IMG/VR virus record: IMGVR_UViG_3300037427_003367
Coordinates: 1-34,922 of that record
Length of the DNA: 34,922 nt
Source: a virus
Direction: 5' to 3' (one strand)
The position numbers were made by a program, and so were the translations under genes. Shown piece by piece: positions 1 through 34,922 of this stretch. Under the pieces are notes generated by a model. It was not told the origin of the DNA and did no database searches. It saw only the letters and a list, made by a program, of their open reading frames with translations. The number at the start of each line of letters is the position of its first letter. The first letter of the stretch is position 1.

Positions 1-170
1 CATCGCGACCAAACTGCACCCCGCAGCAGTCCCGCGCGTGGGACATGCTCGACACCTTGACCGCGCTCAGGATGCGCGCTCATCAGCGCGGCGACCTCGT
101 CGCCGTCGAGCTCGGGCGGGAGATCGAGCGCGCTCTGCTCCTCGTGCTGCGGGGGTCGTACGCATCATGA
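1..170 (+). CDS. Small hypothetical protein, 5' end cut off by window (left copy)
   Basis: The reading frame starts at base 3 and ends at TGA 168-170. It is the truncated twin of the complete gene at 34570-34746. Visible residues include the stretch QQSRAWDMLDTLTALRMRAH and a C-terminus ending in LLVLRGSYAS. The right-hand copy ends in LRSSYQH instead, because its last codons come from sequence that in this copy lies beyond the HTH gene. The stop overlaps the next start (ATGA at 167-170), so the two genes are probably translationally coupled. It is a short helical, charged protein of unknown function. Confidence 0.7.
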   Translation, partial: SRPNCTPQQSRAWDMLDTLTALRMRAHQRGDLVAVELGREIERALLLVLRGSYAS

Positions 171-31853: not shown

Positions 31854-32097
31854 GCGTGAACCGATGGCCGCTGACGGCCTTGAAGAGGCGCTCATCGGCC
31901 TCGGCTCGCAGGGTGACCGGATGCTCCTGGTCTATGACCTCGCAGCCGTGCGGCGCGTCCTCGTGGCGCAGGGATGCCCCGAGGAGGAGGTCGATGAATA
32001 CATCTCGTTTAACGTCACGGGGGCGTGGGTGGGACCAGGCACCCCGGTGTTCGTCGAGCGCATGACGATCGAGGAGGTGAGCGAGCGGCTCGAGTGA
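31846..32097 (+). CDS. Small acidic hypothetical protein
   Basis: The product is 83 aa, overlapping the methyltransferase end by 8 bp. It contains LEEALIGLGSQGDRMLLVYD and a second half with CPEEEVDEYISFNVTGAWVG, typical of small phage accessory proteins with one alpha/beta unit. It has one cysteine and no obvious zinc site. Function unknown. It is the last gene before a 76-bp gap. Confidence 0.5.
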   Translation: MTEREPMAADGLEEALIGLGSQGDRMLLVYDLAAVRRVLVAQGCPEEEVDEYISFNVTGAWVGPGTPVFVERMTIEEVSERLE

Positions 32098-32126
32098 TTG
32101 TCCCACCGGGGCACAGGTGTTTTGCA

Positions 32127-32146
32127 ATTTGAGGGCCTAATCAAAT
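32127..32146. promoter_or_regulatory. Inverted repeat upstream of SWIM gene
   Basis: ATTTGA (32127-32132) and TCAAAT (32141-32146) form a perfect inverted repeat with an 8-base spacer. It lies in a relatively AT-rich 76-bp gap before the gene at 32174. It may be an operator or part of a promoter. Confidence 0.35.
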
Positions 32147-32173
32147 CGGCGTTTCGGCCTCATAGTTATTCTC

Positions 32174-32554
32174 ATGAGCGACGAGAACACCACGCAAATC
32201 ACCGACATCAACAGCCCGCTTCGCTTCACCGTGCGCGCCGACGGCCTCATGGTCATGCGCATCGCTGGTGACACCGGCAACAGCTACGAGCTCTCGGGAC
32301 GCGAGGCCGATGGCTCCGACGTCAGCTGCACCTGCCTCGGCTGGACGCACCACGGCAAGTGCTACCACGTCACCGCGCTCCGCGCTCGCCTCGCCGGTCA
32401 GCCCATTCCGGCTCGCAGGACTCGCGCCAGCCGCAAGCCCTCAGCCCGCCGAGTGAGCGCCCGACCCCTGACCGCCTCCATCATCGAGCCGGTCATCGAG
32501 ACCGCCCCGGCCCCCACCAAGAAGCGCCGGCCCTCAGCCCGCCGCATCCACTGA
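32174..32554 (+). CDS. SWIM zinc-finger protein with basic tail
   Basis: The product is 126 aa. C52-x-C54-x8-C63-x-H65 (VSCTCLGWTHHGKCYHVTAL) is a SWIM zinc-binding motif, known for DNA or protein contacts in recombination and transposition factors. It is preceded by a small beta domain (LRFTVRADGLMVMRIAGDTG). The C-terminal half is Arg/Ser/Pro-rich with repeated PSARR blocks, likely to bind nucleic acid. The stop codon lies at the very start of a hammerhead ribozyme, so its mRNA 3' end would be set by self-cleavage. Confidence 0.75.
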   Translation: MSDENTTQITDINSPLRFTVRADGLMVMRIAGDTGNSYELSGREADGSDVSCTCLGWTHHGKCYHVTALRARLAGQPIPARRTRASRKPSARRVSARPLTASIIEPVIETAPAPTKKRRPSARRIH

Positions 32555-32606
32555 GCCGACTGATGAGGCCGGGTGGTTCCCGGCCGAAACCCTGCGGGGT
32601 CTCGGT
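32555..32606 (+). ncRNA. Type I hammerhead self-cleaving ribozyme
   Basis: All core parts are present in order. Stem I 5' strand CCGA (32556-32559) is followed by CUGAUGA (32560-32566). Stem II is GGCCGGG / CCCGGCC (32567-32573 / 32579-32585) with loop UGGUU. GAA (32586-32588) follows, then stem III ACCC / GGGU (32589-32592 / 32597-32600) with loop UGCG. The cleavage triplet is GUC, with cleavage after C32601. Stem I 3' strand UCGG (32602-32605) pairs perfectly with CCGA, and G32555 with U32606 adds a wobble pair. Open stem I makes it type I. Cleavage would separate the SWIM gene mRNA from the next gene and give the latter a 30-nt 5'-OH leader containing its ribosome binding site. Confidence 0.93.
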
Positions 32607-32631
32607 AAACCAAGCAACGAGGAGACGAGTG

Positions 32632-33069
32632 ATGACACCGAATTGGAAACCCGAGTGTAAGCCGACGTACCACCGTGACGGCAGTGTGAGCTACTGGGAC
32701 GTCTACCTGCAGCAGTGGGCGCGCCGCCCCGCCCAGGAGGTCACCGAGGCCGTCCAGGCGTCCCACGATGACGTGTTCCGCCGCCGCGTGGGCAACATGA
32801 CCGCGCAGTACCACCGCAGCTGCGCGGAGCGCTGCATCGCCGCTGTGTACGTCGAGGAGGTGGATGGCTGCATCGTGACGCGTGGCGAGGACCCCGAGAC
32901 GGGCAACCGCTACGCGTTTCTCTACCGCTCGGGCGGCGCAGCGTTCGCCGAGCTCTGGCGGGACCTGCCCGACCAGACGGACTACCTATGGCGCGCTCTG
33001 CCCACCCCGCTCGGCATGATGGCGGCGATCCGCCAGGCCATCAGCGAGCGGCTGGAGGTGGCACAGTGA
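32632..33069 (+). CDS. Hypothetical protein downstream of the ribozyme
   Basis: The product is 145 aa from ATG 32632, chosen because GAGGAG lies 8 bases upstream inside a GCAACGAGG leader; the frame upstream is the ribozyme and a shadow of the SWIM gene. It has an aromatic N-terminus (PTYHRDGSVSYWDVYLQQWA), a Cys pair (CAERC) and a mixed alpha/beta body (YAFLYRSGGAAFAELWRDLP). It ends in a GTGA overlap with the next gene. No family recognised; its translation would depend on a ribozyme-processed leader. Confidence 0.55.
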   Translation: MTPNWKPECKPTYHRDGSVSYWDVYLQQWARRPAQEVTEAVQASHDDVFRRRVGNMTAQYHRSCAERCIAAVYVEEVDGCIVTRGEDPETGNRYAFLYRSGGAAFAELWRDLPDQTDYLWRALPTPLGMMAAIRQAISERLEVAQ

Positions 33070-34570: not shown

Positions 34571-34746
34571 TGCGGCCATCGCGACCAAACTGCACCCCGC
34601 AGCAGTCCCGCGCGTGGGACATGCTCGACACCTTGACCGCGCTCAGGATGCGCGCTCATCAGCGCGGCGACCTCGTCGCGGTCGAGCTCGGGCGGGAGAT
34701 GGAGCACGCGCTACTACAGGTACTGCGCTCGTCGTACCAACACTGA
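34570..34746 (+). CDS. Small hypothetical protein, complete right-hand copy
   Basis: The product is 58 aa from ATG 34570, coupled to the preceding stop. It is the full version of the gene cut at the left edge. Its last codons (SSYQH then TGA) come from sequence that in the left copy lies downstream of the HTH gene. This copy therefore records a deletion, or an ancestral state before insertion. The body is a charged helix; function unknown. Confidence 0.6.
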   Translation: MRPSRPNCTPQQSRAWDMLDTLTALRMRAHQRGDLVAVELGREMEHALLQVLRSSYQH

Positions 34747-34762
34747 CAGTCCCCGTGCTGGT

Positions 34763-34795
34763 CTAGCTAGCGCGCCCGTCAGCGCGCTAGACTAG
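34763..34795. promoter_or_regulatory. Strong hairpin upstream of lysis gene (right copy)
   Basis: CTAGCTAGCGCGC (34763-34775) pairs with GCGCGCTAGACTAG (34782-34795), with one bulged A and a 6-base loop. The stem is longer and better than its counterpart at 441-473, although most differing bases lie in or next to the loop. It ends 3 bases before the ATG at 34799. Confidence 0.55.
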
Positions 34796-34798
34796 GTC

Positions 34799-34922
34799 AT
34801 GACGTACATACGTTTGACGGTTTGCATCGCCCTCCTCTGCGCCCCGCTGGTGTTTCCTGCTTCCACCAGCGCGCAGGGCGAGGGCGATGTCTTTTCCTCT
34901 CCCGAGATAGGGGCAGCGCTGC
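34799..34922 (+). CDS. Secreted cell-wall-hydrolase-like protein, 3' end cut off by window (right copy)
   Basis: These first 41 codons are base-for-base identical to those of the gene at 477-1043, covering the signal peptide (VCIALLCAPLVFP core) and the start of the mature protein. It is the same gene seen again through the terminal redundancy, not a paralogue with its own sequence. Its function is as for the left copy. Confidence 0.75.
   Translation, partial: MTYIRLTVCIALLCAPLVFPASTSAQGEGDVFSSPEIGAAL

Follow-up and report, generated by a model that had tools for sequence, protein, structure and literature searches.

A predicted pseudoknot-stabilised type I hammerhead ribozyme between two phage genes

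Introduction

What do hammerhead ribozymes do in phage genomes? Their function there is an acknowledged open question (PMC6155905), and the locus described here raises it in a compact form. The viral record IMGVR_UViG_3300037427_003367 (34,922 nt of an uncultured phage, analysed in full and called the window below) carries, between the stop codon of a gene for a SWIM-like protein and the following gene, a stretch which a first-pass annotation had read as a complete type I hammerhead. We asked whether this element is a genuine ribozyme, whether its setting is exceptional, and what its cleavage would mean for the two genes it separates.

Phage hammerheads and a pseudoknot of the loop II type were described by Perreault et al. 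(2011; PMC3088659). According to that work such a pseudoknot is critical for fast cleavage, and native prophage polycistronic RNAs cleave in vitro. The same paper describes a halovirus hammerhead that lies 13 nt 5' of a start codon and whose cut is no more than three nucleotides from a mapped 5' end. It also lists an active intergenic hammerhead of PaP3, which may or may not be the PaP3 element at 44112-44027 considered below (PMC3088659). The annotation's statement that hammerheads are known in phages and bacteria thus agrees with the literature (PMC3088659).

Results

Structure of the element

The window has one hammerhead in the whole 34.9-kb record, and its parts (Table 1) lie where the first-pass annotation had put them: CUGAUGA, the 7-bp stem II, GAA, the 4-bp stem III, GUC and stem I. 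Its claim that all invariant core nucleotides are present was confirmed by the sequence and the pair check, the type I set of CUGANGA, GAA and A15.1-U16.1 being complete. As type I requires, three helices surround the core, two of them (stems II and III) capped by loops and stem I left open, and the minimum-energy fold of 32550-32612 is exactly the hammerhead structure. A further part had been overlooked, namely a predicted loop II pseudoknot of five perfect base pairs between UGGUU and AACCA. Its 3' strand lies beyond stem I, and therefore the element extends to 32612.

The SWIM-gene stop codon (TGA, 32552-32554) directly abuts stem I, and AGGAG precedes the next gene, so that the annotated position between stop codon and ribosome binding site is correct. 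The annotated leader length is correct as well: from the predicted cut after C32601 to the ATG there are 30 nt, with U32602 as the first base of the predicted 3' product.

Table 1. Features of the hammerhead locus in the window
Feature	Position	Strand	Basis or remark
Upstream gene, 126 aa, SWIM-like CxC-x8-CxH motif	32174-32554	+	ORF; Pfam; homologue in the nearest relative (L002)
Stem I, 5' strand GCCGA	32555-32559	+	Pairs checked (5 bp with 32602-32606, outermost pair G-U); stem I covaries in relatives
Catalytic core CUGAUGA	32560-32566	+	
Stem II, 7 bp, GGCCGGG/CCCGGCC, loop UGGUU	32567-32585	+	Fold, pair check (7 Watson-Crick pairs, 32567-32573/32579-32585), stem II swap test
Loop II UGGUU, pseudoknot 5' strand	32574-32578	+	Family-wide complementarity
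Core GAA	32586-32588	+	
Stem III, ACCC/GGGU, loop UGCG	32589-32600	+	Fold and pair check (4 bp, 32589-32592/32597-32600)
GUC triplet	32599-32601	+	NUH, as a type I hammerhead requires
C17, predicted cleavage 3' of this base	32601	+	
Stem I, 3' strand UCGGU, first bases of the predicted 5'-OH product	32602-32606	+	
AACCA, pseudoknot 3' strand, pairs with loop II	32608-32612	+	
Predicted 30-nt 5'-OH leader of the downstream mRNA	32602-32631	+	AGGAG at 32620-32624
Downstream gene, 145 aa	32632-33069	+	ATG at 32632; GTG at 32629 is an alternative start

Chance, terminators and Rfam

The structure might be a coincidence or simply the hairpin of a terminator, as the sequence here is rich in G and C and hairpins of that kind are commonplace 3' of a stop codon. 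Chance is ruled out by the simulations and by pattern controls with a scrambled core or a mispaired stem: 5,652 order-2 Markov simulations covering both strands of the window produced no motif whose stems reached 7/4/4 bp, and the hammerhead pattern gave 0 matches in 100 shuffles. A terminator is likewise ruled out, since the U tract is absent and the terminator scan did not flag the element. The intact core, the covariation and the independent covariance model described below contradict both explanations, to which we assign a negligible probability.

The covariance search with Rfam models, proposed by the first-pass annotation as a check, returned no hit at gathering level in the window. The element scored 14.9 bits against Hammerhead_3 (RF00008, gathering score 48.5) and 12.9 bits against RAGATH-1-hammerhead (RF03152, gathering score 56.3); these are weak core alignments to families with a different open stem or differing stem lengths. 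The LUZ24 element fails too (18.6 against 48.5 bits), and the same models gave no hammerhead match in 18 further loci. Therefore, the Rfam miss is explained by the low sensitivity of these models for short phage types, Rfam assignment being a database criterion and not a defining feature of a ribozyme. When 27 motifs from other phages, with the window left out, were used to build a covariance model, it found the element at 58.8 bits (E 9e-17).

The family in viral contigs

The pattern CTGATGAGGCC..GGCCGAAAC..GTC occurs at no fewer than 119 loci in viral contigs, and a control pattern with scrambled core at none. When stem II was swapped to GTCC/GGAC at least 120 viral loci were found, against 1 for the mispaired GTCC/GGCC. 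Because stem II had to begin with GGCC or GTCC in these searches, and the first two pairs of stem III were likewise preset, we claim no alignment-based covariation for those pairs; the pairing of stem II rests on the swap test. Stem I can be judged from the alignments: among the matches listed, 84-86 of 89 distinct motifs retain its pairs 1-4, compared with 36-47 in shuffles, and do so via many different pair types. The covariation score of alignment A1 is 0.431, against 0.107 when shuffled (0/500 shuffles as high), and 0.101 is the highest value reached when it is slid. Of 94 distinct motifs among the matches listed, 28 show loop II complementarity of 4 bp or more, with 5.4 expected and a maximum of 15 in 1000 shuffles. 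Judged by their sequences, stem I and the pseudoknot covary across the phage family. Compensatory changes, which the annotation had named as a further check, are thus present (stem I covariation, stem II swap) in a comparison that spans the phage family, no orthologous copy having been found at the window locus.

The same pattern yielded 17 stretches in 84,980 bacterial and archaeal genomes, and hence is strongly associated with viruses. A dense array was seen in a Geminicoccaceae MAG (L327, 1905-6349, minus strand), where six hammerhead matches lie within 4.4 kb and would cut one transcript into many pieces. One viral contig (L229, 1892-6196) holds five exact pattern matches in 4.3 kb.

Position between stop and start codons

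The first-pass annotation regarded the genomic setting as unusual, which turned out to be wrong. In a first set of 84 motifs, an open-frame stop codon is near stem I in 69, and 44 have both a stop and a start with a Shine-Dalgarno site no more than 60 nt from the cut (among the matches listed); random positions gave 51 of 1,680 (about 3%) and the opposite strand 1 of 84. In a second set, stop and Shine-Dalgarno start accompany 25 of 91 motifs among the matches listed, against 46 of 1,820 random positions and 1 of 91 on the opposite strand. Within the first set the commonest stop offset, again among the matches listed, is -3, the same as in the window. The starts of relatives lie mostly 22-48 nt from the predicted cut (among the matches listed), a clustering with which the predicted leader of the window agrees. 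The place between a stop codon and a ribosome binding site is therefore the usual one for phage hammerheads, shared by many unrelated phages, and the recurrent order of stop, hammerhead, Shine-Dalgarno site and start makes the setting typical; the same placement is known from PaP3/LUZ24 and the haloviruses HF1/HF2 (PMC3088659).

Flanking genes and the nearest relative

The upstream protein matches Pfam SWIM with E 0.0055 and 16.7 bits, under the curated cut-off of 19.6, and the CxC-xn-CxH motif is present in its translation; its homologue in IMGVR_UViG_3300012952_000128 (L002), the nearest relative, is 59% identical. The 145-aa downstream protein has no PHROG or Pfam match, belongs to no known family and has no relative in viral contigs.

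The relative is 77-87% identical to the window on either side of the junction, which reads CACTGA-TTAGA-ACCACCTGAGCAACGAGGAGAC in L002 and CACTGA-[hammerhead]-ACCAAGCAACGAGGAGAC in the window. There a different gene follows the SWIM gene, homology returns near the end of that gene, and the whole 25-kb record has no hammerhead-like pattern. The junction 3' of the SWIM gene is thus a gene-exchange site at which the ribozyme is an optional insert, and that phage group does not need it. Comparison of window 32632-33069 with L002 3446-3973 shows that the next gene is wholly different in two otherwise closely similar phages.

Searches for an orthologous hammerhead at this locus with the SWIM gene, the next gene and the third neighbour returned this one relative only, which lacks the ribozyme. 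The phage model matched none of 80 loci of Sak-protein relatives except LUZ24, added as the positive control. Named phages showed no close relative when searched at the DNA level with the 4.2-kb region, and terminase and Sak searches of named phages found distant relatives only.

Discussion

Our data imply, with a probability of roughly 0.8, that the element is a genuine pseudoknot-stabilised type I hammerhead which would cut the mRNA of the SWIM gene and its downstream neighbour in cis after C32601. Structure, covariation and repeated context make a type I hammerhead with cis cleavage of polycistronic phage mRNA a well supported reading; cleavage itself, its rate in the cell and any effect on stability or expression we infer. 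On this account the transcript of the two genes would be cut in cis after C32601. According to the established hammerhead reaction, the upstream message would then end in two GC-rich hairpins (stems II and III) with a 2',3'-cyclic phosphate, and the downstream message would start with a 5'-OH and a 30-nt leader that has its own Shine-Dalgarno site. Such cleavage would uncouple the fates of the two co-transcribed messages and would probably protect the downstream message from decay that starts from a 5'-phosphate. The effect on stability could go in either direction, depending on the host nucleases. Nothing usable was found in the literature on LUZ24 5' ends in vivo or on what becomes of mRNA with a 5'-OH.

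The closest known systems are those of the Pseudomonas phages LUZ24 and PaP3 (Bruynoghevirus). In LUZ24 the gp5 stop is followed by stem I, a GGCC stem II, the pseudoknot UGAUU/AAUCA and GUC; the PaP3 hammerhead (44112-44027, minus strand) lies directly 3' of orf67. They share with the window a stop directly before stem I, a GGCC stem II, a pseudoknot from loop II to the 3' side, GUC and a small gene next downstream. They differ in a long stem III instead of 4 bp, in an annotated start codon that is farther off, and in unrelated genes. The pseudoknot-type hammerheads of bacteria and prophages (PMC3088659) resemble the window in their type I core and stem I-II pseudoknot and, in prophages, in a place between the genes of polycistronic RNAs, with cleavage shown for several of them; however, they often occur around a gene as runs of two or three, whereas the window has one. 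HHphage of HF1/HF2 (PMC3088659) is likewise just 5' of the start codon of a phage gene, but has core insertions in its high-salt variants, only 13 nt to the start and an archaeal host. PaP3 (L339) also has a weak second hammerhead-like match of 15.6 bits inside orf41 (31858-31798, minus strand), with broken stems.

Phage hammerheads, their pseudoknot and the PaP3/LUZ24-type layout are therefore already known. The present analysis adds the pseudoknot of the window, the layout statistics across viral contigs, the insensitivity of the Rfam thresholds, and two phages to compare, one that has the ribozyme and one that lacks it.

One prediction speaks against ready activity: once some 50 nt of upstream RNA are included, the hammerhead fold makes up 6e-6 of the ensemble, in a calculation that ignores the pseudoknot, co-transcriptional folding and ribosomes. 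The same prediction gives a family median of 0.13, with only 3 of 93 relatives below 1e-4. The competing strand lies within the SWIM coding sequence and is present also in L002, which has no ribozyme. The pseudoknot, co-transcriptional folding and translating ribosomes may rescue folding. As naked upstream RNA is predicted to misfold the hammerhead, its activity may depend on translation. A ribosome on the SWIM gene would hold the competing strand (about 32500-32520) open, and a ribosome at the adjacent stop would block stem I, so that cutting follows termination. We consider this form of a real hammerhead a tentative possibility. Besides the misfolding predicted for the window, it is favoured by stops no more than 7 nt from stem I in most relatives, the offset of -3 being commonest (among the matches listed); however, such tight packing may be mere genome economy, and most relatives fold acceptably unaided, as their median indicates. 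If cutting were decided by translation, the ribozyme would be a translation-responsive splitter of phage operons. It is rather doubtful that one can go further and see in stop-abutting hammerheads 22-48 nt before a start a widespread mRNA-processing system of phages, largely invisible at Rfam thresholds, in which upstream translation decides the cut.

The glmS ribozyme of Bacillus subtilis illustrates another outcome, as its cleavage leads to faster degradation of the product and lowered expression. Analogously, a real hammerhead might destroy one product here: the downstream 5'-OH RNA or the upstream RNA would decay faster and expression would fall. Which product is stable depends on the nucleases of the host, and this speaks for such an outcome; nevertheless, we think it unlikely, because a Shine-Dalgarno site and a start recurring 22-48 nt past the cut suggest that the downstream product is translated. 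It is quite improbable that the element is a decayed or inactive relic that came along when a gene cassette was swapped. Two points favour a relic, namely that the nearest relative differs in both the ribozyme and the next gene, and that misfolding is predicted in context. Against it, the core bases, all base pairs and the pseudoknot are complete, which would not be expected once function is lost.

Under the preferred reading of a genuine, cis-cleaving hammerhead, the regular layout of stop, ribozyme, short leader and start makes programmed cutting of phage operons directly testable. The window phage and L002, which is ribozyme-free at the same junction, form a natural comparison pair, and a phage-trained model can recover members below the Rfam thresholds.

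Other features of the window

A Shine-Dalgarno linker, GCAACGAGGAGAC, is found at window 32614-32626 and in seven other places (8 occurrences with at most 2 mismatches, against 1.4 expected), and it also stands 5' of the exchanged gene in L002. Ahead of the SWIM gene, window 32095-32173 has a terminator-like hairpin with a T run and then a stretch conserved in L002, with no Shine-Dalgarno site before the ATG; this arrangement suggests a boundary between operons, possibly with a leaderless promoter. The contig ends (window 1-161 and 409-600 against 34577-34922) are about 93% alike, the first copy having some 248 extra bases. This fits a circularly permuted genome with ends from slightly different strains, which would probably measure about 34.5 kb and be almost complete.
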